A stretch of 64,000 nucleotides of DNA from Actinernus sp. WN-2022 (lineage: Eukaryota; Cnidaria; Anthozoa; Actiniaria; Actinernidae): positions 97,133,321-97,197,320 of the forward strand of contig JAOWCC010001634.1 of the NCBI GenBank assembly GCA_030867875.1. Reading direction: 5' to 3'. Each line of letters opens with the position of its first letter. The stretch's first letter is position 1. A model generated the notes under the pieces. The model searched no databases. It saw only the letters and a list, made by a program, of their open reading frames with translations, and was not told the origin of the DNA. Both the position numbers and the translations under genes were made by a program. Positions 33,298 through 51,930 of this stretch are shown piece by piece.

Positions 33298-33513
33298 AGC
33301 AGCAGGGGGGCTGAGCATAATCCATGGTTGAAAATTTGTTGTATCCAACGATTTCCACGACGAAAACCAACGATATGACACAAGAAAAACAACATGTGAC
33401 ACAACGAAATCCAACACATCAACACTCAGACATCACCAGTACCACCCATCCCCCCTGCTGCTATTGCTATCATATTCGTTGTCCACATTATTGTATTTCG
33501 ATGCCCTATTAGA
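33298..33513. repeat. Left terminal inverted repeat of the virus-like element
   Basis: It matches the reverse complement of 51,680-51,925 with scattered mismatches, except that the unit TGACACAAGAAAAACAACATG is present once here and three times on the right. Weaker similarity continues to about 33,555. The outermost 13 bases (AGCAGCAGGGGGG) recur in inverse form at 33,450-33,462 inside the repeat. Confidence 0.9.
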
Positions 33514-33629
33514 GAAAGGATAACATACAGTATATCTATCCATGGTACTAACGTATATTCTTTACTTCACGATATTAACGTATGTTGTTATCTTAGTACG
33601 CATTAATACCACACAGATTAGACAAGAGT

Positions 33630-34095
33630 ATGCGATTGAAGAACCTCAACGTAGACGTCACAACTAAGATACCAATTAGACACATAACATATATAGGTAT
33701 ATTACACGATGACCGAGATAATAACTTGCGATTGGTTGATGCGAGGAAAGGACACGAAATGTATAAGGAAGATTTCGAAGACATCAGAGCACTGTGCTCA
33801 ACACAACTTTCAGATATCAAAAGGTAGCACCCCATTTGTCCCATGTTCGAAGTATGGTAGAGGATGTCGTACTAGTTACGGGCTTTGTACGAAGTGTGGG
33901 ATAATACCACGTCGTCACATACGAGAGAAGAAAGCATTAGATACGAAATGTACTAAGAATCGTTTTTCAAATGTGTTAACTGAATTGGAGGGTCAGCATC
34001 ACATACGAGAGAAGAAAGCATTTGATATTAAACGTACTAAGGATCGTTTTTCAAATGTGTTGGTGGAATTGGAGAACCTTAAGATAGTTCAGTAA
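33630..34095 (+). pseudogene. Small Cys-containing protein with internal duplication, frameshifted
   Basis: Two overlapping frames, 33,630-33,827 (MRLKNLNVDVTTKIPIRH...) and the frame ending at 34,095, look like two halves of one protein joined by a frameshift near 33,800-33,825. The second half has CSKYGRGC...LCTKCG, a possible small zinc-binding knot. It is followed by two tandem copies of a ~29-residue basic segment (HIREKKALDTKCTKNRFSNV and a variant), encoded by an 87-bp direct duplication. No family is recognised. A hairpin with a T-tract lies just downstream. Confidence 0.45.
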
Positions 34096-34115
34096 GATCG
34101 CAATAAAAGAAAGAC

Positions 34116-34168
34116 AAAAAGAATGAAGAGAAATTGGTATACGACCTCTCTTCATTCTTTTTTTTATT
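34116..34168 (+). terminator. Hairpin plus T-tract after the first gene
   Basis: AAAAAGAATGAAGAG (34,116-34,130) pairs perfectly with 34,148-34,162 across a 17-base loop. T-rich sequence follows immediately. It sits 20 bases after the stop codon at 34,095 and before the next gene at 34,221. Giant viruses such as Mimivirus and their virophages end and polyadenylate transcripts at such hairpins; the same role here is an inference. Confidence 0.55.
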
Positions 34169-34541
34169 TTTATTTTTAAACAATTAGACAATAGATTGGC
34201 CTATAACATACGTCGCTAGTATGGATGACTTTCTTAGCTTGTTTGGTTCCGCGTTTGGTATTAATCCTCGTATTCCACAGTTACGTCTTAACCACCAGGA
34301 AACGTGCCCAGAATGTATCTGTCCAATGGAAGTGCAAGGAATGGAATTCGTATGTCCCACATGTGGTCTTGTTTCAGAGAATGAACCATGTGAAGAAACG
34401 ATCTATCCTACTAATAGGTTGCATATAGTAGGTCCGGATAGCTTTCGGTATCAACATGATCTTGACCGTTCAAGCCAAACAGATAACCAAGAATTGCAAC
34501 GACTCACGATTATGCGAGAACTACAGTCATACAACACTATT

Positions 34542-37500
34542 CAGGGCCGTAGCAGGGTCAATACTATTGGGGGGGGCCATCTCGAGCGCCAACTGCGCGA
34601 TGCACGAACGCCAAAGGCGTTCTTCTCTAGGGGGGTCCGAAATAGCATTTCCAGCCTTCTGAGAGTAGTTTCCAGCAAGTTAAAACGGCTTTGAACTGCC
34701 AAAAAAAAAATTAAAATTGAAGTTGTACTTTCACGCAGTACCGTGAACGTCCTCAAATAATTCATGCTTAAATAATTTCATAAAATCAAATGAAAGAAGC
34801 TGGAAATATCCCGCGAAAATGAACAACAGCTATTTAAACAAGATCTAGTGTTCAACTTTGCACTAAAGGCAAAACCATGGATATGCGATCAGATATGTTA
34901 ATTAAACGTAATTGTATATAATTAATTGAACAGGTTTGTACAAATTATATTATGCAACTTGTCAGTGTTGTATGATGGATAAATTAACCTTCTACGTAGA
35001 CCCCACAGACACTAATAGTTCTTTGCCTAACTGGATGTCAGAGTTTGAGTTGACTTCGACAGAAAAGACAACTTTCGGGGCATATCGTTTGCAGTAAATC
35101 TTCCAAACAACTGCTTTCTGTTTTCATTTTGCCTCACAAACTCGTTGGCTGCAGTCACGAGGTCAATCTGGTCAGTCCTGTCCCTGTGTACATGGAGCAC
35201 CATGAGATGATTCAGCCGTGCGTCTCCGGTTGTTGAACGCAAATATGTCTTTACACGCTTCAAAGCGGAAAATGACCGCTCACTCGCGGCATTTGTTGCT
35301 GGAATTACTAACAGTAACTTGCCCAGCGTGCAAATCTCGGACAGAAGCAATTTGCGGGAATCATCAAGAGATTGAAAAAAGGTTATCAGATCATCAACGC
35401 TGAATCTTGACATGTCATAACCCATTGAGGCAGCGACTTGTGGCAGGAGTAACAGCTGGCCTTCAAGTTGAGAGGTATCGAAATCTTCACCATAGACTTT
35501 CAATACTTCAGCCAGCTCAGCATCATATATTTCATTGGCGGTAGCCTTCAGAAGGAGTTCCTGGATGTTCGTGTATACTTTAAAGTCCTTCTGGTCAAAT
35601 CGTGATGTGATGGCAGTTGTTGCAAAATCAATGGCTTCAAAATAGATTTGCTTGTAGTGCTCCTTGGCGGTTTGAGGAAAATGATGAGTTTGTGGTTGTC
35701 CAATCTCGAATTGTTTTGGTGCTTTTCTCTTCCTGGGAAGCTCGGGGTCTTTGATGATATCAATTTCCTTGTCTTTTCGCTGTATGATGCGAGCCCAAAA
35801 GAGATCAAATGATGCATCGTTCCGATCTCTTAACAAAGTTTTAACCACATCTCGCGCAAGCATATTTCCTTGAGCTGCTGAAATTGACGAACTCTGCAAA
35901 GCACGGCTCAGGTTGTCAGTTTGTCTCAGAAGTCTTTCGCCTAAAGAACAACCAAAGTAAAAACTAAACTGCGTCATCATACTTTTAACACCTATGATTC
36001 TGGATTTCATTTCTGTGTCCTTTAAGACCTCAAGCGACCACTCCCAAAGTTCCATGAGTTCATCATGATTATTTAGTACTGATGCTAATGCTTCGCCACG
36101 CACAGTCCATCGTGTCGGGCAAAGCGCATGAACTCCACGTGACTCATTTTTGGTTTCTGCTCTAATTTTATCTAATCTGGTGTTTCTTTGAGGGGATTTT
36201 TTTACCAACTTTCCAATTTCTCTGACTGTATCAAGTGAATCATTCATGCATTTCACTGATTTTATGGCATCAGCGACAGCCAAGTTCAAGGCGTGGCCAT
36301 AACAGTGTGTGTACAAGCACTTTTCATTGACAGATTTAATCTGTGTTGCCACCCCAGTCTTCTCACCTGCCATTGTTGCTGCACCGTCATAGCACTGACC
36401 ACGAGCGTTTTGAATGTCCAGATTCATTGACTGCAGGACATCCTTCAGTTTTTCTACCACCTGATCCGCAGTGGTTCTGGGCAGTGGGTACATCCCAATA
36501 AAGTCTTCGTGAATTAAGAACTTGTCGTCAACCCAGCGAATGCAGAGTACTAGTTGTTCCTTGATAGACACATCAGCTGTCTCATCGGCCATTATCGTGT
36601 AGAATTTTGCATTCTGAATCTGTTCTGATATTTTCCGTAGAATACCAAGAGCAAGAGCCTCGAGCATCTCGTTCTGAATTATCGGGGATGTATATTTGTC
36701 CGTTCTGCGATATAACCACTCCATTATTGCTGGGTTATCTTCAGATCGCAATTTCAGCAGTTGATAAAAGTTTGAGTTCTCCTCACTTACACTGTCGGTG
36801 TCCCAATTGCCTCGCAGTGGCTGGGGCCTGTCGAGCTAAATCGTGAGTAAAATACTTCTATTTTTGGCCTTTTCCTGCGCATGTTTGTCAGTGAGACAGC
36901 AACTCTCCGACATCACCGACTGTTGTTGCTGGTGCCGTAACATATCTGGCCACTGCTTCCCTGTAGATTCAGATGACTCGTGTTTCTGAAACCCTTTCTT
37001 TTTTTCCATTGCATTTTTCCAGTTCCCAAAGCCAATCCGTGTAAATGATGGATCTGCCTTTGTTGAGGAAAGCATATTATTTTGGATGGCTTTCAAACAA
37101 GTGTGGCAAAACACCGTGTCGGTTTCCTCGTCGTAATGTAACCATGATCGCTGGTCAAACCATGCTGGTTGAAAGGAACGCTTCTTTGTATTGTTTCCAA
37201 AGGTCTTTGTGGGGAACTTGAAGCTTTTTGGTTGATTGGGACCTTGTGACACTGATGCTAGACCTGGTGCCAGTAAATAAGGTTCTTGTCGTGTGGCTTT
37301 GATGCTAGAATTCGAAGATTCTGCTGCTTGTACGCCAGATGTTGTCTCTAAATCAGCCACTTCCGTTATCTGTTCTTCACTGTTTTCATTCTTCTCAGCA
37401 GATGGCTCGGGTCTCATCCAGTTAAGAAGTGTCCTTTGTCTTTGATTTTTCATGTTTGAAGCCATAAATGAATAAATTTCATGCTCTATCGAAGCGAAAG

Positions 37501-37628
37501 AAACACACAGGAGCGTGAAGAGCGTGACCGCTGACCAAATGTGCCTGTCAAAATAGAGCGTGGCCGCTGACCAAACGTGCCTGTCAAAATTATTGGGGGG
37601 GGGGGGGGCTCCCCCTGCTACGGCCCTG
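34542..37628 (-). mobile_element. hAT transposon (ZMYM1-type), 3,087 bp, 5-bp duplication CTATT
   Basis: The ends CAGGGCCGTAGCAGGG and CCCTGCTACGGCCCTG are perfect inverted repeats. CTATT flanks both sides (34,537-34,541 and 37,629-37,633). Poly-G tracts lie just inside both ends. The body carries a single minus-strand transposase gene. Most hAT families make 8-bp duplications, but a subgroup makes 5-6 bp; the intact flanking reading frame confirms 5 bp here. Confidence 0.93.
35027..37465 (-). pseudogene. hAT transposase, ZMYM1/TTF-type, one in-frame stop
   Basis: The protein starts most plausibly at MASNMKNQRQRTLLNWM (about 37,465) and runs about 810 codons to 35,027. A TTF-type zinc-finger region is seen near FQPAWFDQRSWLHYDEETDT followed by CHTC. 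The transposase domain (DUF4371-like) follows with YTIMADETADVS and GQCYDGAATMAG as aspartate motifs. The hAT dimerisation region at the end includes NAASERSFSALKRVKTYLRS, with the catalytic glutamate expected in that type. The reading frame is continuous across 36,751-36,838 except for one TAG codon at 36,836-36,838. This near-intact state suggests a recent insertion. Host ZMYM1-like genes share the domain, but the inverted repeats show that this is a transposon. Confidence 0.92.
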
Positions 37629-37870
37629 CTATTTATAAACAAAATTATGACCTCTCATTCCCAACGAATGTATTAGTAATCGTAACCGACGCATTCATTC
37701 AAGCGAAGAAAGTTTGTGTCAGGCGTAGCTATGCTAAGAGAACTATCTTAGCTGCATTGCTTTATCATGCATGTATACAATGTCAGTTCGTTCGATCTAA
37801 AAGTGAGGTTGCCAATTTCATGCAACTAAACAACGGATGCATCTATCGCGGCAACGACTTTCTACGATCT

Positions 37871-38248
37871 CTATGTGCTGATGATAAAATGTACTTTTAT
37901 TCCTAACTTTTTAGCTCCAATAGTAGTAGATGCTGAAATTAACCCACATATCCCACCAATAACACCAAGTGGTAGGCCAATTATGACACCAAAACCGGTT
38001 AGAGCAACTCCCAATCCAGATCCCGATAAAATCACAGATAGACCACCTGCTACAACAGAGATACCATGAACGATTCCTTGAGTACGCGCATATTTCTTAC
38101 GTACGCCATCATAGTGTTTTTCTTGAGTTTCTATATCCGAAAGCGTATCGCGGATTGTCTGTAGCCTAACATTATCTCCAGTACCGCCAGCAAGCGATGG
38201 ATAAACGGATGGTGCCGTTGGAAGTAGTTGAATAGAATCGCTTGCCAT
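37871..38248 (-). CDS. Small two-helix membrane protein
   Basis: 125 residues from ATG at 38,248. The N-terminal half is polar with a likely coiled segment (DTLSDIETQEKHYDGVRKKY). The C-terminal half is very hydrophobic and Gly/Val/Ile-rich (about residues 56-108), enough for two membrane spans. It overlaps the end of the TFIIB-like gene by 36 bases on the other strand. I recall similar anonymous proteins in cnidarian genomes, which would fit a conserved gene of this element family; this was not searched. Possible roles are virion membrane or host-membrane interaction (inference). Confidence 0.65.
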   Translation of the reverse strand: MASDSIQLLPTAPSVYPSLAGGTGDNVRLQTIRDTLSDIETQEKHYDGVRKKYARTQGIVHGISVVAGGLSVILSGSGLGVALTGFGVIIGLPLGVIGGICGLISASTTIGAKKLGIKVHFIIST

Positions 38249-38265
38249 TATGTCTATACTGTATC

Positions 38266-38933
38266 TTACTCAATCTTCAATGCGTAGCGTATGGGACGAC
38301 CACGGAAGTCTATGGTATTGCCTTTCTCATCATAAATCGTTAGACGAAGGCTATTTTGCATCGTACCAGAAGCTCGTATGACCTGGGGATTCATTAGAGA
38401 GTAAGTATTTTTTGCAAATCTTTCACCTCGGATATCTAAGATAGCCAGTACTTTTGATCGCTTTCCATCGAGAATTGAGAAACTAGAATCCACCACATCG
38501 CAGTGGATATATACTATGTGGGTCTCAAAGATATTTATATCGTAAGGACCTACCTTTACCTCTACGATCGCGTCGGTATCTAAATCCCCCCTACATCGTT
38601 TAATAAACAGTGCGCAGATATTTCTGCTTAGAATGATCGGTTCCTTGTCATCTAAGATCCAATCCCCCGTCGATAAGAGTTTCACGAATTTTATGATACC
38701 AGCATCAATTGCGGGTTTGAAGAGGGTCTGGAGACTTGCCATATCATAGTTCCCGCCTTAATTTCGTATGGAAACATCACACCATCGACATACCACTTAA
38801 AGCTCCCTGGCTTTGCTATGTTCCACCAACTATTCTCAATGGTTATCTCAACTAGTGAGATGTTGTTTATAAGAATGGGATTATCAAAGTAGACAATGTG
38901 GTCAGCCGATGTGATGGTGACATATAAGAGCAT
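38266..38933 (-). pseudogene. Beta-rich structural protein, two overlapping frames (probable frameshift)
   Basis: The frame from 38,933 (MLLYVTITSADHIVYFDNPI...) reads to WYVDGVMFPYEIKAGTM and soon loses sense. A second frame from 38,742 (MASLQTLFKPAID...) carries on to KIE at 38,266. They overlap by 52 bases. The composition is continuous, beta-strand-like, and the C-terminus (NSLRLTIYDEKGNTIDFRGR) resembles a jelly-roll or minor capsid/penton-type ending. The simplest reading is one protein of about 220 residues broken by a frameshift near 38,740; two overlapping genes are the alternative. A capsid role is inferred from fold-like pattern and context only. Confidence 0.5.
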
Positions 38934-38955
38934 ATTAAAGGTATAAACAGTATGT

Positions 38956-40599
38956 ATGTGTAGCTTTAATATGAGGAGGCACGGAGGTAATTTCAGCTAC
39001 CATTATGATGGGGGAGACGACGAGAGAGATGATGAGACCCCAACACAGAATGCTAATTTACGGTTAAAGGCTGATATTCTAGCTAGGAGAGATAAAGAGA
39101 GAATAGCTGAGGAAAACGAAAAGGTCGCAGTACTGAATGCCAATCTATTTGAGAAGTTCAAGAAAAAATACCCATTTGCAGATCCTAAGAAGTTCTATGC
39201 ATCTACGGATATAGATGGGCCCGGCAAATATTCGACGAGTATTTGGTTTCGAGATGGGGATTCTAGTTATGTGGTTTACGGAGATAATGTCTCCAAACTA
39301 CCTGCTGACATTAAAAAACGAATCGATACCGAGTTGCAAGGAACAAAAGGTGGTTTCCCACATACCTTAGTGCTATGGCCAGGTGTAAAATATCCTATTG
39401 CAGCAGTTCCTTTTCAAGAAGAAGCACAAGATATCGATCTCACTAATCTATTGATATATGTCACTCCAACGAAAGCATTCAAAGCAGGTGTCAAGGACAT
39501 ATTCAAGGAGACCATTGTAAAACATAGATCACTAAGTGAGGCTAATAAATGGTTGGCAGGACCTAATTTCAACCATTGGTCTCAACAGTTAAATTTCGCT
39601 ACGTGGTGCGCAACTTCTGGTTGTGGAGTGTCGTTGTTCGATCCACTCTTCAAGACCTATCCACCAGTCGTTCAAGGATTCCTACGATTTCATACGTATT
39701 TCACAATACGAAGAATTCTACATGAACTTGGTGGTATTCATGGCGTGCCTTTACCCGGTGATAGGGCTTTTGAGCAATTTGATAACTTCTACGACAAGTC
39801 AGCTCTTGAAAACTTATGCATCGAGTTTGGCTTATCTCAAACACCAGACTTTCGATGGGATGGAGGTAATAATCATGGTTTAGGAGACGTCTACGTAAAC
39901 TCTCATGGAAGAATGGTGAACTATACAGAGAAGTTTGCACATAACACTTCATACTCTGCGAAATGGCCTGGTGGTGACTTCAAATTTCCTAAGGAGAGTC
40001 GTACCGACTATCAGTTTTCGTTATCTTACATTAGCGATGGCAATGGTAAACAATACAATTGGTTCGTACCACTAATCGGTAAGGGCTTGACTGAGGCCGG
40101 ATTGGGTAGATTGAATAGATCAGTTGAGGCTTTCGCGTATTGCATTCTAGGTGCTCAACTAGAGGTTAATAGTCTACTTGAAGTAGCTATTCTTGAAAAC
40201 GATTTAGTGAAAAGCGTAAATAACTATCAGGTAGCTATAGATGGTACAAAGAAGAAGTTAGATCTAGCAATAGCTATAGGAGTGTGGTTGTTACCAAGCA
40301 ATCTAGTGTTCGATGCTCAAAAGATTAGTGGCTACAATAACGCATTCAAGATAGCGACAAAAGATATGGTATTAGGCTCAAACTCCATCAACAATGATCA
40401 CAAGAAATCAAAACCACATGATATGGAAGGAGATACGCAAAAGAAACAATTACCACACATCGCAAATCAACAAGTTTCATCTCCAACGATCAGTGAAACT
40501 GCAGTGTATCACTCACCAAATCTAGTTCCACAACATGAGACCAATCTAGCATTAGTAACTATCGTTTCATCTGGAATCGCATGGTGGTTATTTCGCTAA
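38956..40599 (+). CDS. Large conserved protein of unknown function, 547 aa
   Basis: The frame is uninterrupted from ATG at 38,956; a second ATG at 38,971 (MRRHGGNFSYHYDGGDDERD) is also possible. The first ~75 residues are charged and probably coiled. A globular central part contains FNHWSQQLNFATWCATSGCG, then RFHTYFTIRRILHELGG, PLPGDRAFEQF and GGNNHGLGDVYV. The last ~15 residues (LALVTIVSSGIAWWLFR) could be a tail anchor. The start lies 22 bases from the divergent gene at 38,933, so they probably share a promoter. I recognise the pattern as recurring in uncharacterised cnidarian proteins but know no function. It is the longest intact gene of the element, so it is likely a structural or virion-core protein (inference). 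Confidence 0.75.
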   Translation: MCSFNMRRHGGNFSYHYDGGDDERDDETPTQNANLRLKADILARRDKERIAEENEKVAVLNANLFEKFKKKYPFADPKKFYASTDIDGPGKYSTSIWFRDGDSSYVVYGDNVSKLPADIKKRIDTELQGTKGGFPHTLVLWPGVKYPIAAVPFQEEAQDIDLTNLLIYVTPTKAFKAGVKDIFKETIVKHRSLSEANKWLAGPNFNHWSQQLNFATWCATSGCGVSLFDPLFKTYPPVVQGFLRFHTYFTIRRILHELGGIHGVPLPGDRAFEQFDNFYDKSALENLCIEFGLSQTPDFRWDGGNNHGLGDVYVNSHGRMVNYTEKFAHNTSYSAKWPGGDFKFPKESRTDYQFSLSYISDGNGKQYNWFVPLIGKGLTEAGLGRLNRSVEAFAYCILGAQLEVNSLLEVAILENDLVKSVNNYQVAIDGTKKKLDLAIAIGVWLLPSNLVFDAQKISGYNNAFKIATKDMVLGSNSINNDHKKSKPHDMEGDTQKKQLPHIANQQVSSPTISETAVYHSPNLVPQHETNLALVTIVSSGIAWWLFR

Positions 40600-41648
40600 C
40601 GTCGTTTGTATTGCTCTATTGTGATCACCACTATAGCGACGATAAATAACCAAACGTTCTCTGCTAATACTCCAAGGGCCTTGCCAGCCATAGTAAATAC
40701 GAAACTCGCAATTGATCCAATCATTCCAGGTAGGATCTGTCCAAGTTTCTTTCCCATTTCCTTTAACAACTCACCCGTAGTTTTTAATCCCTTCTTTACT
40801 ACATCTGCCACTTTGTCGATACCATCTTTTACTGGTTTCGGTACGGATTTCGATAACTGGGAAACTATTACACAAACGATAGCACCAATAGCAGTTACCA
40901 CCGCAAGAACGGTCATTCCATACTTTCTGAAAATGTATTTAACCCTCTCATGTAGCGACGTACGTTCTAGTATGGCTTCTTCTTGACGTTCAATGAATTC
41001 TCTTGCCCTACTAATAGACATTAACTCCTTCTTAGCTACTTCTTTCTGAGCATCGGTCGATTCGGAGTCTCTAAGAATAGAATAATCATTTGCTTCCCGA
41101 TCAGCGAGTTGTCGTTCTGCAAATATTACTTCATTGGCAACTTCTTCATTATTTGGACCTAAGGCCTCTTTGAGAGCTTCCCTCATCCTTACACGTAATT
41201 TCTTATCTCCTTCGTCACCGACGAATAGACGTGTGAAGGGTTCTTTGCTTCCAAGTTCGCGAACTTTGATTTGTTCGTCTACTAAGGAGATTTCGATGTT
41301 ATGTCGAACGCCCGCGTCCATATATTGCCCCTTTACTATGTCAACCAGCATTTCTTTTGCCGAATCTTGAATGGTTTGTTCGAATGTGAATCCTCGAAGT
41401 GGGTCATCACTTTCTATGGCATAGTCATGCAAATCATCCATGGTAATTGTCTCACTACCTCCAGCTTCATCTTGATTATCACCCAATAAGCGAACCATGT
41501 ATTTTTTACTTGCTTCTCGTTCTCGTCGGTCTTCTTCATCTCGTTCTAGTCGGTCTTCTTCATATCGTTGTCATCGGTTTTCTTCATCTCGTTGTCGTTC
41601 TTCGTGTCTATCGGTATTATCCTCAGGTCTCACATCCTCACCTTCCAT
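40596..41648 (-). pseudogene. Charged coiled protein with membrane-spanning C-terminus, premature TGA
   Basis: The open part runs from 41,498 to 40,596 (300 residues). Upstream the same frame continues to an ATG at 41,648 (MEGEDVRPEDNTDRHEERQR...), interrupted by one TGA at 41,571-41,573. That codon lies in an Arg-rich D/E-E-D-R tract, so the stop is probably a CGA-to-TGA change. The whole product would be about 350 residues: an acidic/basic repetitive N-terminus, a middle helical domain, one membrane span at VLAVVTAIGAIVCVIVSQL, and two more in the last ~50 residues ending IEQYKRR. The gene ends 4 bases into the convergent 547-residue gene and starts 34 bases from the capsid gene. Function unknown; a virion membrane role is an inference. 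Confidence 0.65.
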
Positions 41649-41682: not shown

Positions 41683-42921
41683 ATGATATCGTCGAAGTTA
41701 ATTCCCGCACAAGCACGAAGAGAGCCTCTCGCACTCAAAGCTCCACGTACATTATATAGGAAAACTTTCAACCCATCATCTTCTAATCCAGGAGAAACAC
41801 TCTATGTGGACGTACCAACTCTTGGAGAAAATATAGTGTTGGTTCCAGGTAGTTTAGCATTATTGGCTGATATAGTATTATCTGGTGGACATGCAAATAA
41901 TCGTGTTGTAGCAAACGTTGGACGATGCTTGGTAGTACATCGAATTTGTAAAGTTGGATCTGAGAAGGTAGAAGATGTCTCTCGCGTAGATCTATTACAA
42001 TCATATTCAGATCTATATCTCTCTACTCAAGATCGAGAATCTCGTATACAACAAGGTATCCAATCAGAAAACACAAATAAGTTACGATCTGGTTCTAGTG
42101 ATAAGAGCATCGCTAACGTTGGAGAGAACGCACTTCTAATCGCGTATGGTTCGAAATATAGAATTCCATTAGATGTCGATATCCTTACGCAACATGGAGC
42201 TCTATATCCACATGCACTACAAGATACCGTTTCATTCGAATTAACTCTCGCACCTACCATCGATATAATTATTGGATCGGACAGTACAAAGATAGGTACG
42301 TACAAACTCAATAATATCCAATTGGAATATGAAGCCATCAAGAACGAAACTCTAGCTAGAAAAGCGATGCACGCATATGAATCAGGCACTGCCTTCCTAT
42401 TCAACCATGCAGTCCACTTCAAGACCGTAACTATCGCTAAGGCAGTAGAATCTTTGATATCTCAGAATGTTAATGTCCCACGACGATCTTTCGCTGGATT
42501 GCTTCTACTATTCGTTGTTCCACATACCGCAGGTACAAGAGATAGTGAGTCATTCGTCAATCCAAGCATTTCTAAGCTTGAGATAGATGTTAATGGAATT
42601 CCAAATAGATTCTTTCCAGGGGGTATGTTACCACAAGATTTGTGGGAATCAGCAAAGGGATGGTTTGCCACATCAGAAGAAACGTCGATGACACCTACTA
42701 AATTCCATAATAATAGATTCGCCATTCTCGTTGATTGTCGAACAGCGAAAGACCCATCAGTTCATGGCGATGGCATGGCACAAACTGGTAGTGGGAAAGA
42801 TATTGACATTCGTATACATAGAACCGCAGAAGGCAGTGGTAATGTAAACATGCACATCTTCGTACTTTCGGATGCCCAGATCACGATATTGAACGGAGCT
42901 CTACAAAGTATTACATACTGA
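41683..42921 (+). CDS. Major capsid protein, probable double jelly-roll
   Basis: The frame is open from 41,497, but the first ~60 codons are low-complexity Ser/Arg, antisense to the charged tract of the neighbouring gene. The ATG at 41,683 (MISSKLIPAQARREPLALK) is the likely start and gives 412 residues. The product is beta-rich throughout with few charged helices. It has GETLYVDVPTLGENIVLVPG near the start, SKYRIPLDVDILTQHG and FELTLAP in the middle, and SGNVNMHIFVLSDAQITILNG near the end. Length, strand-rich pattern and position directly before the packaging ATPase fit the double-jelly-roll capsid proteins of Polintons and related viruses. The frame is fully intact. The fold is inferred, not demonstrated. 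Confidence 0.7.
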   Translation: MISSKLIPAQARREPLALKAPRTLYRKTFNPSSSNPGETLYVDVPTLGENIVLVPGSLALLADIVLSGGHANNRVVANVGRCLVVHRICKVGSEKVEDVSRVDLLQSYSDLYLSTQDRESRIQQGIQSENTNKLRSGSSDKSIANVGENALLIAYGSKYRIPLDVDILTQHGALYPHALQDTVSFELTLAPTIDIIIGSDSTKIGTYKLNNIQLEYEAIKNETLARKAMHAYESGTAFLFNHAVHFKTVTIAKAVESLISQNVNVPRRSFAGLLLLFVVPHTAGTRDSESFVNPSISKLEIDVNGIPNRFFPGGMLPQDLWESAKGWFATSEETSMTPTKFHNNRFAILVDCRTAKDPSVHGDGMAQTGSGKDIDIRIHRTAEGSGNVNMHIFVLSDAQITILNGALQSITY

Positions 42922-43546
42922 TGGATATCTTGGTAGAACACATTCCATTTAACGCACTAATAGTAAGTCCAACAAATTGTGGGAAAACCGGATTCATCGT
43001 TGAGATGCTTCGTGGTGCATTTCGTGGAAAGTTTGACTATATAGTATTAGTTTGTCCCACGTACGTACATAACAAAACTTATCGGGGATTTGCATATAAA
43101 GATCCACATTTCTTCGTTATATCACCACCACAGGATGCTATCAATTCCACATTGGAGATATGGGTGCTACATTTTGGACTAGTACTAATACGCTTTTGAT
43201 TCTAGATGATTGTGCTGCATCGAAAGATGTAAAAAGAAGAACTGATAAACTCGTCGATTTGGCATTCTCTGCTCGACATATCGGTCTATCTATTTGGGTT
43301 CTATCCCAACAATTAACAAGAATATGCAAACCTTTCCGTGAGAACGTAGCTATCGTTGTCGCATTCCATACCGTATCCGCTATTGATGGTAAAAAGCTAT
43401 TCGAAGACTATGGAGGTTCACAAGAAGATAAGGAATTTCGAGAAGAACTTAAATCAAATAAATTCGCTCGCATGTGTTTCTGTTTACGTCATCCATTTTC
43501 GGTAGTGTTAGAGATACCCGCACCAATAACATATCATGGACGATAA
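42921..43546 (+). pseudogene. Genome-packaging ATPase (FtsK/A32 type), frameshifted
   Basis: The first frame (from 42,921, sharing its first base with the end of the capsid gene) has a Walker A motif, SPTNCGKT at residues 16-23. It loses sense after about residue 78. The second frame (from about 43,160) has a Walker B motif LLILDDCAAS, then GLSIWVLSQQLTRI, typical of the sensor/arginine region of A32-like ATPases. The two halves are offset by one base change between about 43,140 and 43,185. Undamaged, it would be about 208 residues, normal for Polinton-type ATPases. It powers DNA entry into capsids in this family. The stop overlaps the start of the next gene by 11 bases. Confidence 0.85.
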
Positions 43547-44093
43547 AGTAATGGATGAACTTCTTGGCGAAGACATAATAGGCCCTTGCGAAGTTCCAGC
43601 ACATATAGATGAAAATAGAGAAGCACTTGCTATCTTGGCGGCGACTGGTACAACGAAGGAATATCTTGGTAAGAATTTATCTCAAGGAGACGTTGCTAGA
43701 TTACTCGATAAAGATGTAGAGAAATTGCATAGAAGATATCAGGCAGTTCTGGCACAACAAATAACGGGATGTCTAGTCAATGGCGTGATGAGTCTAGCTA
43801 CTCGAGCAGTTTCACAGTTAGTATCAATAGATTCTCAAGAAGCACTTCTTAGAGATTTACAAGGAGATAATCTAGTACGTAACGAGATCAGTTCTATAGC
43901 AGGTCTATTATCTCTTAAAGCAGGTCGCTTTGTAGCACTAGCCAGTGTCTTATTCCATGTAATTGACCATATAGGCGTACCAAGTGATCCATCTATTGAA
44001 GTCATAGAGAATAATGATATATCGACGCAACGAGATGATGGAGGAACAAACGGATCAGATAACTGCAGTTCTTCCGACGACCAAACCAACTAA
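43536..44093 (+). CDS. Helical protein of unknown function, 185 aa
   Basis: The intact frame starts within the last bases of the ATPase gene (MDDKVMDELLGEDIIGPCEV). The middle is predicted helical (LSQGDVARLLDKDVEKLHRR) and includes a moderately hydrophobic segment (AGRFVALASVLFHVIDHIG). The tail is Ser/Asp/Asn-rich and disordered. Its overlap with both neighbours suggests a shared late transcript with capsid and ATPase. Not recognised by name. Confidence 0.6.
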   Translation: MDDKVMDELLGEDIIGPCEVPAHIDENREALAILAATGTTKEYLGKNLSQGDVARLLDKDVEKLHRRYQAVLAQQITGCLVNGVMSLATRAVSQLVSIDSQEALLRDLQGDNLVRNEISSIAGLLSLKAGRFVALASVLFHVIDHIGVPSDPSIEVIENNDISTQRDDGGTNGSDNCSSSDDQTN

Positions 44094-44406
44094 GTCGAAA
44101 GATCCCGCTAAGATTGCTGCTGGTAAAACCCATGCGGCAAATAACAAACTTGCAAGAGAAGCATTGAAAAGGGAATTAGCACGCGAAAAGGACTCATTGG
44201 ATGTCGAATCATGTGAAGAAGAAAATTGGTGCAAAAACGTAAATACCAATACCACGCTTGGAGTAGCGATCGTTGGAGTAGGCATCGCATTGGTTGGTCT
44301 GTACTATCAATATTGCATCTACAAAGTTAAGACGAATGTCGTACCAACCACTCGTCCAACCGAACGCATAGTTCCTACCAAGGTAACATTGCCTGATATG
44401 GAATAG
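44035..44406 (+). CDS. Small single-span membrane protein, Lys-rich
   Basis: The frame is open from 44,014; MMEEQTDQITAVLPTTKPTK at 44,035 is the likely start, overlapping the preceding gene by 59 bases. A basic segment (KDPAKIAAGKTHAANNKL) is followed by a charged linker. One clear membrane span (TTLGVAIVGVGIALVGLYY) lies near residue 75-95, with a short basic tail. Part of the compact cluster of small genes; probably a virion-associated membrane protein (inference). Confidence 0.6.
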   Translation: MMEEQTDQITAVLPTTKPTKSKDPAKIAAGKTHAANNKLAREALKRELAREKDSLDVESCEEENWCKNVNTNTTLGVAIVGVGIALVGLYYQYCIYKVKTNVVPTTRPTERIVPTKVTLPDME

Positions 44407-44407
44407 G

Positions 44408-44662
44408 ATGGTGCGACATTTAAAGACTGGGGGATATATGATATATGTTAGAATGGATAAAGAGTTGATGAAAGCGGCATCTGATGCTGCTATGATAACT
44501 GGACTTGCTACTGGTATTGGGTGGATCGTAAAAAAGGCTACCAAGGAATCTATGCTTAGTGATCCTTCCATTTCTATTATAAATTACATGAAGTGGACTG
44601 CAGTAATAGCTGGTAGCATACGTGCAAAACAATATCTCGAGAAACAAAAGATCATACCATAG
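44408..44662 (+). CDS. Small hydrophobic protein, 84 aa
   Basis: It starts one base after the previous stop codon (44,406); internal starts at 44,438 and 44,453 (MDKELMKAASDAAMI) are also possible. Two modest hydrophobic segments (DAAMITGLATGIGWIV and YMKWTAVIAGSIRA) suggest a two-pass membrane protein. No family is recognised. Tight packing with its neighbours supports reality. Confidence 0.55.
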   Translation: MVRHLKTGGYMIYVRMDKELMKAASDAAMITGLATGIGWIVKKATKESMLSDPSISIINYMKWTAVIAGSIRAKQYLEKQKIIP

Positions 44663-44677
44663 GATTTGTAGTATAGT

Positions 44678-45097
44678 ATGGCGGCAGCAATTGGAATGTC
44701 TATTTTCGGGGCGATTATGAATGCAGCGGCATTCACTGGTGGTGGCGTACTTGCTAAAATATTTGGAGGAAAAGATATCGAACGAGAAAGGCACGATAGG
44801 GCTATGGAAAAACTCGATATCGCTCGGGAGGCATATATCGAAGAACGTCAAAAATTGTCCGATTGGGCACGTGAACAAGAAGTTGCTGAACGCAATGCGT
44901 ACAATATTCAACGCGATACCAACCGAGCTTTTGTGCGATCCTATAAGTTACACCAGGCACTGGAACGACTCAAATCAATGAAAGAACCTCGTTTATCAGA
45001 CTACTATCAACCATCCAACGCACAGAAGACTGGTGAGTTGATTTTTGTTGGTAGCGGAATGCTAGTTGCTGGATATGCTGTTAGTCGATTGCTTTAA
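44678..45097 (+). CDS. Membrane protein with coiled centre, 139 aa
   Basis: The intact frame has a hydrophobic N-terminus (AAAIGMSIFGAIMNAAAF) and a long charged helical middle (ERERHDRAMEKLDIAREAYI). The C-terminal span is GELIFVGSGMLVAGYAVSRL. The hairpin-like layout, two spans flanking a coiled coil, is common in small virion membrane proteins. It is the third of the closely packed small genes. Confidence 0.6.
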   Translation: MAAAIGMSIFGAIMNAAAFTGGGVLAKIFGGKDIERERHDRAMEKLDIAREAYIEERQKLSDWAREQEVAERNAYNIQRDTNRAFVRSYKLHQALERLKSMKEPRLSDYYQPSNAQKTGELIFVGSGMLVAGYAVSRLL

Positions 45098-45136
45098 AAA
45101 AACGAATTTTCTTATACTAATGGTCCATTTAAAGCT

Positions 45137-45613
45137 ATGTATGTATATATGTATCAGAGTGCGATGTGTGAACTGATTAAGGTTGGCGTTAGGCTTGAAG
45201 GAGACGAACGGTTCGTAGAAGTTAATGCTTTCCTACACTTAGATTCCCCCATTTCGTATTGTACGAATTCGTTCATAGACACGTTGAATTCTAACGAAGA
45301 GCCCGTCGTTACTAAGTTCGATGGCGACGGTCCTTTCTACTTAGGAAATCTAGAAATGCAAATCTCTACATCGAATAGATTCTTCACCGTTAGTAATATA
45401 GCGATTTGCAATGATAACTACATAGATAAGTATGTGCGCGAGTATGGAGGTCAGAATAAGAATTGGGACAATGGATACTACAGATTCGGTTTAGTATTGG
45501 GATACGATGCCATTGAAGCCATTGAAGCCATTAATGACGCATCTAATCAAGATAGAATAACTAATGAAATTGATAAAGAACTGGCCGAACTTGCATACAA
45601 ATCTATTAACTAA
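45137..45613 (+). CDS. Unknown protein, possible aspartic-protease-like fold, 158 aa
   Basis: The intact frame starts at 45,137, or at 45,152 (MYQSAMCELIK). FLHLDSPISYCTNSFIDTL, then a beta-rich stretch, then FGLVLGYDAIEAI about 80 residues later, follows the retropepsin pattern (LDSGSxxSF...L, and a later hydrophobic-hydrophobic-G-x-D segment). The catalytic Gly after Asp-Ser is Pro here, so the match is weak. No other protease is visible in the element, which makes the idea attractive but unproven. The tail is acidic. A terminator-like hairpin follows at 45,633. Confidence 0.45.
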   Translation: MYVYMYQSAMCELIKVGVRLEGDERFVEVNAFLHLDSPISYCTNSFIDTLNSNEEPVVTKFDGDGPFYLGNLEMQISTSNRFFTVSNIAICNDNYIDKYVREYGGQNKNWDNGYYRFGLVLGYDAIEAIEAINDASNQDRITNEIDKELAELAYKSIN

Positions 45614-45615
45614 TT

Positions 45616-45693: not shown

Positions 45694-45729
45694 TGTGCTT
45701 GTTGAAGGTTAGAATGCGTATATATATCA

Positions 45730-47718
45730 ATGGATGCTAAACTAAGTTTACGTACTGTTTAAAACACGAACAGCAGTGTTTTATCAAGTTTAAAAATTCG
45801 AGGGCGAAGCCCGAGAATTTTTAGACTTGATAAAACACGTGCTGTGAGTGTTTTAAACGGCTTCAAAAACGCTTTAAGAATGCAATGAAAGAAAGACGCA
45901 CATCTCAAGGGAATGGTTACTTAATGAACCATTGAACCTTTGTATTCACAACGCCATGCAAAATATTCGAGTAATCACCGCCTGCAATTACGATCTCAAG
46001 GGAATGACATGAAGAAATTACCATACTATGTTGTTTGAAGCGGCGTTTCGCAATCGGCAAGAAGAATCTGCACTTGAAGGATTTGGTGTCGTGGTTTACC
46101 TCGATAAAGTTCAAGACTTGGAAAGCGATGTGACTGACATGACGGCAGACTCTAAATTTTTGACTCCGGCACAAAATATGTAAGTTTAATGCACGTTTTT
46201 ATAATTTTACGGCTTTGAGTTTGGTTTAATAATTGGAACTAAACAGTGGCTCGGTAAACAAGTAATGGTAGTTGGACAACTTCATTTTAAAAATATTATC
46301 TGTGTATCTCGGTAGTCTGCTGATATTAGTAAATTGAGTGCAAAATTTATTATCTAGGTACCTTATGTTCCGTGTACTTTTTGCTATCTTTGGGTCTTTA
46401 TCAGTGAATTCTTAATTAGGATGAAACTTTATATAAAATTTCATGTTCATTAATATTCTTTATATAAAACGTTCATCCTAATTAGCAATTCAGTGAGAAA
46501 GCTGAAACATCAATAGAAATTCCATTGTCTCAATCATTAACCCCGTTTCCCTCTGGGACAGAATTCAAATCCCTCCGCGGGCCTTTTAGAATGATGAGAT
46601 TTTATCAGGTATAAAGGAGCATGCACGTGACTGATTTGCTTCATCTGATTGGACAAAATGCTCATTAATTATTCATGAGTTTTTGAAGATACTATAGTCT
46701 GAGTGGTTATTGGAAAGGACTTGCAGCGATTAAACATCTTTCCAATGCGACTGGTATTTCTGAAGATGCGACGCGTATGTGGCTAGAAAAACAAGCTATA
46801 TGGCAGATTTATTTACCAGCGCCCAAATACGTTCCACGACCTAAATTCGATGTATCTACACCAAATGAAGTTCACCAAGCTGATTTGATATTCCTACCTC
46901 ATGATCGCCCTGGACGTGGAAGAAAGCTATATAAGTATGCATTGACAATTGTGGATGTCGCTTCGAGATACAAAGAAGCCGAACCATTAGCTACTAAAGA
47001 ATCTAAAGAAGTTGCTGCGGCATTTGAACAAATCTATAAGAGAAGTCCACTGGTATGGCCAAAGTTATTGCAGGTCGATCCAGGACGTGAATTTATGGGT
47101 GCAATGTCTTCGTTACTAGATAAACATAAAGTCTCTGTAAGACGTGGAAGAGTTGATATACATCGGGATCAAGCAATCGTTGAACGATTCAATCGTACGT
47201 TAGCTGAGAGATTGTTTGGACACCAATATGCTCAAGAAATGGTACTTTCTTCACAAGGAAATGACGATAGATCTGTCGAATGGGTAGTTCGTTTACCGAT
47301 GGTAGTTAAAGCATTGAACAACGAAGTCACTCGTTTGACTGATAAACGACCATCTCTAGCAATTACCAAAGATGAGGTTGAATCGAAGCCATCAGAACCC
47401 GCACATGATCGACCGATTGGTCTCAAAGAACAAAGACTTCCATTTGGCGTTCTCATTAGATATCTTTATTCTCCTGGTGAATTAGAAGGTGGTCGACGTC
47501 GTGCAACCGATCCAATCTGGTCACATTCCATATACCAACAAAGACGCATCGTAATCAGGCTTGATGGGCCAGTCCTTTACTATTTGACGATACCACAAAT
47601 AACGACGCAACGACCGAAAGTCGTCCCAGATCGTGGATTCGTTCGCGAAGAGCTCCTTGTCACTCTTGTCATTCCCAGAGATACCATGTTGCCACCTGAT
47701 AGCGTTCTCATCCGTTAA
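45730..47718 (+). pseudogene. Retroviral-type (rve) DDE integrase, interrupted
   Basis: The likely start is MDAKLS at 45,730. A ~930-bp insert follows, and the coding resumes at about 46,690 (YYSLSGYWKGLAAIKHL). From there it is open to 47,718. With residues numbered from the ATG at 46,777, the catalytic triad is D36 (HQADLIF), D101 (QVDPGREF) and E136 (AIVERFNR), a DD34E spacing typical of rve integrases in Polintons and LTR elements. The C-terminal ~100 residues are basic and beta-rich (LEGGRRRATDPIWS...GFVREELL). It would join element ends to host DNA and make the 5-bp duplication. The last 198 bases overlap the minus-strand nuclease frame. A small frame offset also exists upstream of the insert. 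Confidence 0.85.
45757..46689. mobile_element. MITE-like insert splitting the integrase gene
   Basis: Coding sequence of the integrase stops at about 45,752 and resumes at about 46,690, with TACT on both sides. The insert begins with a striking hairpin (45,757-45,860: GTTTAAAACACGAACAGCAG... with its inverse, loop at GGGCGAAGCCC). The right part (46,600-46,680) includes CATTAATTATTCATGAG, which also occurs at 52,370-52,385. The 85-residue minus frame in it (45,917-46,174) is unsupported. The exact borders are approximate. Confidence 0.65.
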
Positions 47719-50700
47719 TGGTGATGATCCCCTTCTTGCGTTACATTCGAGACATGTCAGTCTAACATTGTCGCGAGTGTGTCCCATAGAATTATCTAAC
47801 CTATCAACTGAGAACTGTTGTGGGTCCCATGACTCATAAATCCAAAGTAATTCTATGTTGCATGCAGAACATAAGTTGTTTTGAACTTCCTTGAAATGCA
47901 ATACATCACAGACCTTTAAGTCGAAACCTTTAAATCCCTTAGCTTGATCACTACGCTTATAGTTCACGAGCTTTCTGCAAATGACTTTACGAATCTGCTG
48001 AGAGGATGATGATGAATGATCTTGAGTTTGTTCCATGGGACAATTAACTCGTTCAAGTTGATTCATATATTCGACTCTTGATACGGCAAGATAGGCAAGA
48101 TTGGACCATCCAAGATAATCGTCGATGATCCATACCTTTTTGGGATTATGAATTGTGAGACCTTGGCTGGAATGGATAGTCAATGCATAACCAAGTCGCC
48201 AATCGGATTCCTTTTTGGAATAGATATCTTCCGCCGCATTCATAGTGACATTTACGATATCATTCGAGACTAGCACTTCTTTATTATTGGTTCCTGGAAT
48301 GGATATCGCGATATTTTGCCTACGACTATCTCGAGGATGATATAATAAAGGGACGAAGATGTCTGGGAAATGCTCTTTGTGTCGTTGGAATAATAGCTTC
48401 TGTACGTGATCTCGAACTTTCTGACGACTGGTCAATATAACGTCGCATGGCTTCCATGATAGAACGAATTCGTTCCATTCGAGACAACTAGGTAGACAGC
48501 GACGAATCTCTTCACATTGGAATTTATCAGATTGAAGACGAATTCTCTTCTTCAAGATTTTAGTTCGTCATCTTTCGCCCTATAGTCGGTATCTATCTCT
48601 TCATAGTAATTAACTCGTTCTCGAAGCCAATCATGTGGGGAATCACCTGCTATTGGAGGAGGTTGGCCATGATCACCACAATAAATTACTTGGACGCCTT
48701 TTTGATTGAGCCAACCAAGGAATATCTCTAGGATCGCACGAGGCACTATACAAACTTCATCCCATATTATAACTCTAGGTATGTATTTCTTTCCCAATCG
48801 ATCGGGTGTCCATTCCTTATCAGCTATTTGTGGACCAAGCATATCAGATCCAGGATAATGTAGTGGATCACCATATTTTCGAGCAACGAATACTATCTCT
48901 TCTGGTTCCTCATCGTTTCCATCGATATCAAGTCTGGGATCCACATCGGTATCTCTCGATAAGATGAGATCGTTACCTTGAGTCCAATTCTTTTTTGCAT
49001 TCCAAACTTTGATCGATTTATTTCTATATTTTGGCAAAGACTGGAGAGATTCGAGATCTTCATCTGTTGCTCGTACTCTTTTGACACCACAATAACGAAA
49101 GAAACTATGATAGGTTTGAGATTGGACGCCTCTATCACGCATTTCTTTAGCTAATCTATGGGTTGGAGTGAATACTATGGGATTTCTCGTTCGAAAGAGT
49201 TCGATTGCTCTCGTAGTTTTACCACTTCCACCACCACCATTAACATAGCAGAGTTGATGTCGTGATAATGGGTCTTGATAACATGGTGAAGTACTAAGTG
49301 ATAGTTCTTTTTGTTGGATGACATATTCTGGCTTTGGAAGGTAATCTGCGTGTTCTTGTGGCATATATAGTTGTTCATTCTTATCTCGCCATTGAGCTGG
49401 AGATACTGTTGGAAGATATCGTTCCTCAAACATACATAAGAAACACCATTCTTCATTACAATCACACATTCTTGGAACTACATATGCTGAAATTCCATCC
49501 AATTTGCGAAGTGCATGTTTCTGAATATATATAGAATCAGTAGCGACACGAACAGCTTCGTTGGTAGTGAAACGTTGTAACATACATAGTAGATTTATGT
49601 GTGCATAGGCCAACATGCTTGCACGCAAATGAGTATATTGAGGTTGATTTCCATCGTAGTACGTAAGGATGTGACCAAGAGGACATTGTTCGGGCGATCC
49701 AACCAAAGTGCCATTTCGTATGGTATATCGTACTAGGAAATCGAGTTCTCCTTGATCAGTTACCAATCGTCTGGTCAAACGTTTTCCATCGACTTTGCTA
49801 CCTTGGGTGAACTTTCCTATAATGGCACATCCCTGATCTCGACTTTCTGGAAGCCATATCTTCGTTTGCTTATCGAAAGACACAATGACCTCGCGAATGA
49901 TGAGAGTTTCGAGAAATCCTTGGTCTACAAGAAATGCAAGAAGTTGTGTTGGTGCCCATCCATTCTCTGAGAAATGTTTTCCAAACCACGATGGAATGAT
50001 GGGATGGCATGTAGGAGCAAATGACCATTCTTGGATTTCAGCAAATCCAGTTCCAATGTCAATAGGGAGTGGACCATTCACGGAAACTCGAGTCATACGA
50101 TTAGTTGGATGACCGAATCGTTCGAAATATGGTTTCGCTTCACCTTCACCTTGAAAACTCGCCGGATAACAAGACTTCATATCAATGCTAACGACATCTC
50201 TAGTATCGTAGTCCATCGAATTCCACAGACCACCATGGCCATGCTCCACACAAGACTTTTGGATATCTTCTAAGAAATTGGATGGCGTCGGTTTCCAATT
50301 ATTCTTTTCTTTTGCTATTACGCTTGCCGCATGATTCTCACCAAAGACCCGATCGGCAAGGGATTCGTCACCCAAGTCTTGGCATATTAGTTGGAGTCTA
50401 TCTTGAGTTCGTTGAGTCCTGTAAGTGCTACCATCTTGGAGTACGAATTGATTGACATTAAGTTGTCTTCCTTCTGATCCTCCTAACAACCATACAGCTT
50501 TTGGTTCATTCAAAGTTGCTTGTCGAATGGCTTCCCACACATCACCATCATATATATGGACAGAACGAGATTGTGGGAAATGCAGATCTTTGGACCAGGC
50601 ATGGCCATTGTGATAGATTAGTTCTATAGATTTCCATTTGCTTGCCTGATCTTTGCCACTATTATAGATATCCTCACCAACAATGTCACTCAGTATTATA

Positions 50701-51468
50701 GACCGGTTGATAATCGTCTCCAGCTTAGACATATCATCGATTGTGGCACCTGTGTCATGGACTTGTTCTTCCCACTTCTGAATCTTATGACATCTAGTAG
50801 GAGTTAGACCTTGGCCTCTCGTAGTACCTTCGAAATGTTCTATAACTCTCTGTGCGACGCAATTAAGATCACCTGTGAATGCGCATGGGAGCTAGATTTG
50901 CTAGATCTGGTGCTCTGATGGGATAAAGTCCATAGACCACTGCAGTAACTGGATATGCGTTCTGATAGTATACCTTGTCGATTCCAACTATCGCACCTGG
51001 ATCAGTGTCATGAGAAATCTCGATTACACCATAACCCTTCTTTCTCTCAACGTGGACTGGTTCGAACTTATCGTCGACGACCCAATACGTATTTCCATCA
51101 TTGTTATGTTCTCTAAGGAATTTAATTTTCAAGATGAACTCACCATCTGGAAGTGCCGTAAGAAGTTCTCTTGCTCTTTCTATGGTCATACGGACATCCA
51201 AAGCCAATCGACCAGCTCTTACTTCGATACCATCGGCGACATTAATATTGCCAATATCAAGTGGGTCTTCTGTTTCTACTCTCCACGTAGAGAAGACGGC
51301 AGTTGCACCATCGACTTCAAACATATCCTTAGCATCTATCAAGAGTTCTACCCATTGCTCATCTGGAAGTGTTATAGGATGAGGCACTTGGATGTCTAAG
51401 TCGTATCTCTCGTTATTCTCTGGGATTGGTACGTACTCTGCGAGAATCTCATCGATCAGATCATCCAT
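47521..51468 (-). pseudogene. Family-B DNA polymerase - SF1 helicase - HNH fusion, split by two frameshifts
   Basis: Three consecutive minus-strand frames make one long protein of roughly 1,300 residues. The N-terminal part starts at MDDLIDEILAEYVPIPENNE (51,468) and leaves frame near 50,870. The middle part is open from about 50,880 to 48,552, although its first ATG is at 50,732. With residues numbered from that ATG, it has PolB motif A (SIDMKSCYP, D184), motif C (VATDSIYIQ, D399), Walker A (GGGGSGKTT, about 499-507), Walker B (VIIWDEV, about 654-660) and YCGDHGQPPP. The last part (from 48,555) has GYALTIHSSQGLTI and AYLAVSRVEY, helicase motifs V and VI. An HNH-like CSAC...DRLDNSMGHTRDNV...CLEC nuclease follows. 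A one-base loss near 48,556 explains the second break. It would replicate the element; no stand-alone primase or exonuclease is seen. Confidence 0.8.
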
Positions 51469-51498
51469 AGTAGCAATGATGATATACCTAATAGTAAC

Positions 51499-51745
51499 CC
51501 TTCCTCTAAATGGTTGTCGAAATACAATAAAGTGTATCACGAACAGGTATGTAACAATGGATGGATATAATATATGTTAGCCTTCCTCTAAATGGATGTC
51601 GAAATACGATAAAGTGGATCACGAACGAGTATGTAACGATGGATGATATACTATGGGATAGCCTATCTCTAAATGGGCATCGAAATACAATAATGTGGAC
51701 AACAAATGTAATCGCAATAGCAGCAGGGGGGATGGGTGGTACTGG
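51499..51745. repeat. ~82-bp tandem repeat at the inner edge of the right terminal repeat
   Basis: CCTTCCTCTAAATGG at 51,499 is repeated at 51,581 and, as CCTATCTCTAAATGG, at 51,662. Each copy continues with TCGAAATACAATAAWGTG and similar sequence. The third copy merges into the terminal inverted repeat. The left end has one related copy near 33,490-33,555. Confidence 0.85.
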
Positions 51746-51925
51746 TGATGTCTGAGTGTTGATGTGTTGGATTTCGTTGTGTCACATGTTCTTTTTCTTG
51801 TGTCATATGTTGTTTTTCTTGTGTCACATGTTGTTTTTCTTGTGTCATATCGTTGGTTTTCGTCGTGGAAATCGTTGGACACAACAAATTTTCATCCAAG
51901 GATTATGCTCAGCCCCCCTGCTGCT
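51680..51925. repeat. Right terminal inverted repeat of the virus-like element
   Basis: Reverse complement of the left repeat (33,298-33,513), with three tandem copies of the ~21-bp TGACACAAGAAAAACAACATG unit instead of one. AGCAGCAGGGGGG also occurs inverted inside it at about 51,719-51,731. TGTTC at 51,926 is the target duplication. Confidence 0.9.
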
Positions 51926-51930
51926 TGTTC

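Follow-up and report, generated by a model that had tools for sequence, protein, structure and literature searches.

In the genome of the cnidarian Actinernus sp. WN-2022, a stretch of 64,000 nucleotides (assembly GCA_030867875.1, contig JAOWCC010001634.1, positions 97,133,321 to 97,197,320 of the forward strand; hereafter the window) contains a large integrated element that is, with a probability of roughly 0.77, a defective endogenous member of a family of double-stranded DNA virus-transposons that exist in many copies, probably encode virions and are of the Tlr1/polinton-like-virus (PLV) type, here in a hexacorallian cnidarian. The element is real, replicated and well bounded, and the copy in the window is broken, its polymerase and ATPase frames being disrupted and a hAT transposon sitting inside its zinc-ribbon gene. 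A preliminary description, made from the letters of the window, had presented it as a complete-looking, Polinton-related virus-like element that departs from the usual Polinton in its polymerase, its lack of an adenovirus-type protease and the length of its target-site duplication. The analysis upholds an integrated, virus-like element related to Polintons, here in a cnidarian; the departures do not go unexplained, because the polymerase architecture and the missing protease match the Tlr1/PLV type as already described (PMC11071308, PMC4028283). Throughout this article, comparisons with published systems draw on excerpts of the cited papers.

Borders and insertion site

The two ends of the element are terminal inverted repeats (TIRs) of about 220 bp, with the outermost letters AGCAGCAG; the left arm, 222 bases long, aligns along its whole length to the right one, from which it differs by scattered mismatches and by 42 bp in units of a 21-bp repeat. 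The host flanks together form a palindromic miniature inverted-repeat transposable element (MITE). When the flanks were joined around one TGTTC (166 nt), 39 other places in the genome matched this query without interruption, at 89–96 % identity and over 154–166 of the 166 bases, whereas the window's own locus aligned over positions 1–123 only; the search gave 80 rows, including reverse-strand matches of the palindrome, with the best 40 of 1,735 first-look candidates scored. In all four uninterrupted MITE loci that were read out, one TGTTC stands at the junction. These empty MITEs with a single TGTTC therefore establish both borders of the element and its 5-bp duplication and, together with the TIR alignment and the flanking TGTTC copies, confirm the borders first proposed from the TIRs, the duplication and the split MITE. 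Of the term complete-looking, the part that concerns the ends holds; the interior is damaged, with the polymerase in three open reading frames (ORFs), the ATPase in two and the zinc-ribbon gene interrupted by the hAT insertion.

The TIRs have some internal structure as well. Each contains an inverted inner copy of its own first 16 bases, matching at 15 of 16 (33447–33462 and 51719–51734), and a 173-base TIR query that includes this inner copy gave 45 rows in the genome, 27 of them over the whole query. Where the right TIR ends on its inner side, a direct repeat of about 64 nt occurs three times (51500–51726) at intervals of 81–82 bp, overlapping the N-terminal end of the polymerase gene.

A fusion of a PolB-like palm, a helicase and a nuclease

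The gene that best places the element encodes a fusion of a PolB-like palm, a superfamily 1 (SF1) helicase and an HNH nuclease. Polymerase frames stay open for up to 1,386 aa in relatives within the genome, and one copy, L012, has the fusion as a single ORF of 1,309 aa, which has IDAKDMFE in common with the first of the three window pieces and DKFQCEEI with the third. In such relatives the helicase lies C-terminal to the palm within one ORF, the palm part being recognized by its motifs. The helicase matches Pfam AAA_30 (E=3.2e-7), and PHROGs profiles match the fusion pieces as a Dda-like helicase and an endonuclease VII/HNH protein (E=4.6e-12). Besides a Walker A motif, GGGGSGKTT, the protein has the motifs DMKSCYPAS, IGKFTQG and ATDS, which we take to be palm motifs A, possibly B, and C, respectively; ATDS would then be a motif C without its first Asp. 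A Pfam scan of the N-terminal region of the L012 ORF, in which terminal-protein and vOTU domains were looked for, gave no match. At its 3′ end the fusion gene runs antisense into the integrase gene; the shared stretch measures 180 bp in copies L041, L042 and L043 and 198 bp in the window, where it contains stops.

Tlr1-like helicases are likewise described with a motif C that lacks the first Asp, and some have a C-terminal HNH domain (PMC11071308). The unusual polymerase architecture noted earlier reflects a helicase-HNH fusion, and as a departure it matches the Tlr1/PLV type.

Packaging ATPase and capsid candidate

The packaging ATPase named in the preliminary description is well supported, since PF04665 (Pox_A32) matches two overlapping window ORFs at E=3.6e-5 and 1.3e-4 and matches L041, where the gene is one ORF, at 1.4e-11; the frame is continuous in L041, L042 and L044. 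Directly upstream lies a conserved capsid-protein candidate with the motif IPLDVDILTQHGALYPHALQD, which we presume to be a capsid motif. This motif, the conservation of the protein and its position ahead of the ATPase make a double jelly-roll fold a tentative prediction. Of the two proteins proposed to match viral families, the ATPase did so and the capsid candidate gave no profile match.

Copies elsewhere in the genome

The element is one of many. With the polymerase as query, 66 matching stretches were found at at least 62 distinct places (best 62 of 442 candidates scored), and with the capsid candidate there were at least 90 matches (best 90 of 5,074 candidates scored, all 90 of which matched); copies are present on many large contigs. 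Pairing of plus and minus TIR ends on the same contig gave ten pairs, including the window, and a duplication is recognizable in every one: exact 5 bp in six (TGTTC in the window, TGCAG, GGTGT, CAGGC, AAAGA and CATGT), exact 6 bp in one (GTCGGA), 6 bp with one mismatch in two (TTCTCA/TTCCCA and GATACA/GATACG) and 5 bp with one mismatch in one (GGATG/AGATG). GGTGT and CAGGC were read by eye and CATGT separately from the ends of its copy; an exact 5-base match is expected by chance about once in 1,024 per pair. The 5-bp duplication is therefore real, and as a departure from Polintons it is qualified by the 6-bp duplications that also occur in the family. The copy flanked by CATGT (contig C942, 6611000–6629840; L038/L039) ends in AGTAGTAGG instead of AGCAGCAGG, and these ends resemble the (AGT)2 ends of vertebrate Mavericks.

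Gene order was compared between the window and five other copies, each represented by a single interior piece. Over the part that each piece covers, the order agrees with that of the window: ORF a, zinc ribbon, b and c (both on the minus strand), a 547-aa protein (P3), a 300-aa protein (P7, minus strand), capsid candidate, ATPase, five small ORFs and integrase, with the HNH-helicase-polymerase gene on the other strand. There are two small exceptions, in that L044 is without ORF g and has only 76 residues of the integrase, and in L042 a further short fragment matches ORF d. The expectation that further copies would share ends, gene order and short duplications was thus borne out within the same genome, by nine more end pairs and five interior pieces.

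Apparent purifying selection and mosaic divergence

Ratios of non-synonymous to synonymous divergence (dN/dS) are low in the central genes. Among eight copies, the capsid candidate has values of 0.07–0.24 (28 pairs, one of them identical and 27 counted) and a polymerase fragment has values of 0.13–0.27 (28 pairs). Against the five interior pieces, the window's capsid candidate gave 0.09–0.15 at dS 0.15–1.5 (partial in L040 and L042), and for capsid candidate and ATPase dN/dS stays around 0.1 where dS approaches or exceeds 1. The comparison with the interior pieces left out ORF a, the hAT ORFs, the polymerase pieces and the short second match to ORF d in L042, and the zinc-ribbon gene was cut at the hAT site. 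On these figures, the capsid-type genes look preserved by purifying selection.

Divergence is also uneven along the element. In L040, dS is 0.18 for the zinc ribbon, 0.20 for ORF b, 0.76 for c, 0.65 for P3, 1.9 for P7 and 0.15 for the capsid part; in L041 it is 1.3 for the capsid candidate and 0.25 for the integrase; and in L044 it is 3.1 for ORF d and 0.16 for ORF e, the high values being near or past saturation and short genes being noisy. The spread among genes of one pair exceeds 10-fold in four of the five comparisons and is 7-fold in the fifth (L041); between adjacent genes it exceeds 10-fold in two of the five (L040 and L044). Because genes of the same pair differ more than 10-fold, the mosaic suggests exchange of capsid/morphogenesis cassettes on a common integrase-polymerase module.

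Relationship to known elements

Tlr1 of Tetrahymena thermophila is described with the same rve integrase, palm-SF1 helicase fusion with a C-terminal nuclease and FtsK-type ATPase, likewise without an adenovirus-type protease, and with a capsid gene to which the capsid candidate here would correspond; it differs in that its nuclease is of the GIY-YIG rather than the HNH kind and in that the host here is an animal, and the likeness is one of described gene content. For Tlr elements as such, an RVE integrase, an ATPase, a helicase fusion and no protease are described (PMC4028283, PMC11071308), and Tlr is counted (PMC12721341) in the Aquintoviricetes, a class whose creation, together with the first PLV family, appears in a 2025 taxonomy summary (PMC12451622). 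PLVs with Tlr1-like helicases, placed in that class, share the helicase fusion architecture and in some cases the C-terminal HNH, whereas most PLVs are described as being without an RVE integrase and the hosts named in the excerpts are algae and protists. Oxyrrhis OmPLV, a PLV that is likewise endogenous and present in many copies, also has an SF1 helicase fused to the polymerase, but its helicase is N-terminal, its exonuclease is kept and it has a tyrosine recombinase instead of an RVE integrase.

Polintons/Mavericks (Polintoviricetes, Eupolintoviridae) share with the element the size range, TIRs beginning with AG, the rve integrase, the packaging ATPase and a terminal polymerase gene that is read in the direction opposite to the integrase. 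They are recognized by a pPolB that has its own exonuclease and no helicase fusion, whereas the polymerase-type ORF here is fused to an SF1 helicase and an HNH nuclease, no protease was found in the ORFs scanned and the duplications are mostly of 5 rather than 6 bp; Mavericks are described with 6-bp duplications and AG-type ends (PMC8097293). Two Nematostella Polintons with PLV-group capsids come from an anthozoan host as well and have an RVE integrase (PMC4642659), but they are described as possible chimeras with an ordinary pDNAP, and the helicase fusion belongs to the element described here.

Judged from its genes, the element would work like the Tlr1-type PLVs and is probably a member of that group. 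A wholly unknown type of element was set aside, as the departures from Polintons fit the Tlr1/PLV replication module. No earlier report of a Tlr1-type polymerase-helicase element in an animal was found at the level of titles and abstract openings, in a partial coverage of the literature. Hydra is listed among the species in the legend to a figure of Tlr1-protein trees (PMC3671162), and for that reason a partial precedent is possible. In the study by Bellas et al., as excerpted, no metazoan capsids other than cnidarian ones fall outside the main Polinton cluster (PMC10120064).

Alternative explanations

For the two Nematostella elements it has been proposed that an ordinary animal Polinton/Maverick acquired a PLV-type morphogenesis module, and these sea-anemone Polintons, with PLV-group capsids, pDNAP and RVE integrase (PMC4642659), make a similar origin worth weighing here; the ends of the element begin with AG, and the one copy with AGTAGTAGG ends is like the (AGT)2-ended Mavericks (PMC8097293). 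Such a chimera is nevertheless unlikely, given that the polymerase-type ORF carries an SF1 helicase and an HNH nuclease, that Pfam scans of 20 of the 40 window ORFs of at least 80 aa found no protease and that the duplications are mostly 5 bp against the 6 bp of Mavericks. Alternatively, the element might be no more than a self-synthesizing transposon, with capsid-type genes that are relics or have a role outside virions; the stops in the capsid candidate or polymerase of many copies would allow this, and no particle is known. Relic capsid genes would be unexpected, because dN/dS of about 0.1 persists in the capsid candidate and ATPase at high dS, and this explanation is considered improbable.

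There is precedent in protists (PMC10120064) for virophage-like or host-beneficial elements that are activated by a co-infecting giant virus and kept in many copies as a defence, but with neither a superfamily 3 helicase nor a protease turning up in the profile scans, this is a very improbable account of the cnidarian element. Contamination by a protist or virus contig might be considered, as most relatives of this type in the excerpts of the literature are tied to protists or algae, yet it is scarcely credible in view of copies on many large contigs and of the host MITE that the window copy interrupts within a contig of 149 Mb; for this copy the split MITE is decisive, and contamination was rejected.

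A virion-encoding element of Tlr1/PLV type thus remains the preferred explanation, and several results weigh against it. Comparison of the palm with phi29 and PRD1 polymerases by hhalign profiles was not significant (E 0.18–0.32, with three of five shuffled controls scoring better), and for this reason the palm assignment rests on motifs. The capsid candidate gave no match to HMMER profiles, and PDB matches for the candidate and two alignments were at chance level; its single-sequence AlphaFold2 model, at pLDDT 30, was too poor to be searched for similar folds. A penton protein was not identified among the element's ORFs. Constraint is weak or absent in some small ORFs and short genes, ORF g reaching a dN/dS of 1.28 in L043, on few changes. 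Finally, scans of IMG/VR by short exact words, which mainly reach close relatives, found no relative.

Other genes of the element

The features are collected in Table 1. The integrase claimed at the outset is an rve protein, and the several membrane proteins proposed fit simple hydropathy. The absence of an adenovirus-type protease also held in the Pfam scans of 20 of the 40 ORFs, in which a diverged one could be missed, and no superfamily 3 helicase turned up in the profile scans of window ORFs. The TFIIB-like factor fared less well, its Pfam match being weak (PF08271, E=0.3), but a CxxC..CxxC pattern is visible in the product. Homology of this gene to L040 ends at residue 107, the exact start of the hAT element in the window. 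That hAT element is flanked by a 5-bp repeat, CTATT, only, the usual duplication of hAT transposons being 8 bp.

The 547-aa protein had no match in the profile scans and may be a candidate minor virion protein. The 300-aa protein is the most diverged gene in L040, at 35 % beside 97 % for the capsid part, and matched PRD1_DD, the PRD1 membrane DNA-delivery profile, at E=0.046, below the cut-off.

Table 1. Features of the integrated element and its insertion site (window coordinates)
Feature	Position	Strand	Remarks
Left part of split host MITE	33175..33297	+	own locus aligns to query 1–123 only
Left target-site duplication TGTTC	33293..33297		single at junction in uninterrupted MITEs
Whole integrated element	33298..51925		18,628 bp including nested 3.1-kb hAT transposon; TIRs, target-site duplication, split MITE
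Left TIR	33298..33519	+	starts with AGCAGCAGGGGGG; inverted internal copy of that motif at 33447–33462
ORF a	33709..34095	+	partial homologue, same place, at edge of copy L040
Zinc-ribbon (TFIIB-like) gene	34221..34541	+	cut at residue 107 by hAT; weak Pfam PF08271, E=0.3
Nested hAT transposon	34542..37628	-	16-bp TIR CAGGGCCGTAGCAGGG; transposase-related ORFs; DUF4371 E=3.6e-15, Dimer_Tnp_hAT E=2.3e-6
ORF b	37871..38248	-	hydrophobic segments by hydropathy; 94 % in L040
ORF c	38266..38742	-	58 % in L040
547-aa protein (P3)	38956..40599	+	65 % in L040
300-aa protein (P7)	40596..41498	-	two hydrophobic segments; very variable
Capsid-protein candidate, 412 aa	41683..42921	+	directly upstream of ATPase; conserved in genome copies
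A32-type packaging ATPase	42921..43546	+	frame broken, two overlapping ORFs; PF04665
Five small ORFs (185, 130, 84, 139, 158 aa)	43536..45613	+	three with hydrophobic segment; same order in L041, L042, L043
rve integrase	46777..47718	+	PF00665 E=5e-9
PolB-like palm-SF1 helicase-HNH fusion gene	47521..51540	-	three ORFs: 50869–51540, 48552–50732, 47521–48555
Right TIR	51662..51925	-	inverted internal copy at 51719–51734; exceeds left TIR by 42 bp, two units of a 21-bp repeat
Right target-site duplication TGTTC	51926..51930		
Right part of split host MITE and flank	51931..51973	+	

The host

The element sits on a 149-Mb contig of a 1.39-Gb genome. The assembly also includes a mitochondrial contig (C144) of 35.7 kb with cox1, in which a unit of 15,968 bp is repeated in tandem about 2.2 times. 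The unit has two tRNA genes, one for Met and one with the anticodon UCA (SeC in ARAGORN; tRNA-Trp if TGA is read as Trp), and a split nad5 with nad1 and nad3 between its halves. Two tRNA genes together with a nad5 split around nad1-nad3 are a hexacorallian combination.

Proposed life cycle and significance

The genes allow a life cycle to be proposed. The rve integrase would attach the TIR ends to host DNA cut in a staggered fashion, and the duplications of 5 or, less often, 6 bp that are seen at the insertion sites would be its trace. Replication of the linear genome would be the task of the palm-SF1 helicase-HNH protein, starting at the repeated (AGC)2AG-type ends and probably primed by a protein, as the type would imply, and the A32 ATPase would package that genome into a capsid built from the putative 412-aa capsid protein. 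Elements may then re-infect or re-integrate and, by recombination, exchange capsid cassettes while sharing the integrase-polymerase module, a process with which the mosaic divergence is consistent.

That the element belongs to a distinct lineage of animal-integrating viruses, as first suggested, is plausible. The fuller proposal is of a branch of the Tlr/Aquintoviricetes-type viruses, which so far have been seen mainly in protists and algae; this branch would infect animals, continue to produce virions and shuffle capsid cassettes by recombination in the cnidarian germline, and would be distinct from animal Polintons at the family or order level; this is put forward tentatively, at somewhat less than even odds. 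Elements of this kind are already known, best of all from a ciliate and from algae; new here are the occurrence in an animal, target-site duplications of mostly 5 bp, the overlap between HNH and integrase ends and the evidence for selection and mosaicism. Elements like this could be one reason for the cnidarian capsids that fall outside the main Polinton cluster (PMC10120064), and the family may bridge protist-type polinton-like viruses and the Metazoa. It has long been an open question whether the Polinton-type elements of animals form virions. A family this numerous, whose capsid-type genes look to be under purifying selection and appear to be exchanged as cassettes, would make that question testable in an animal.

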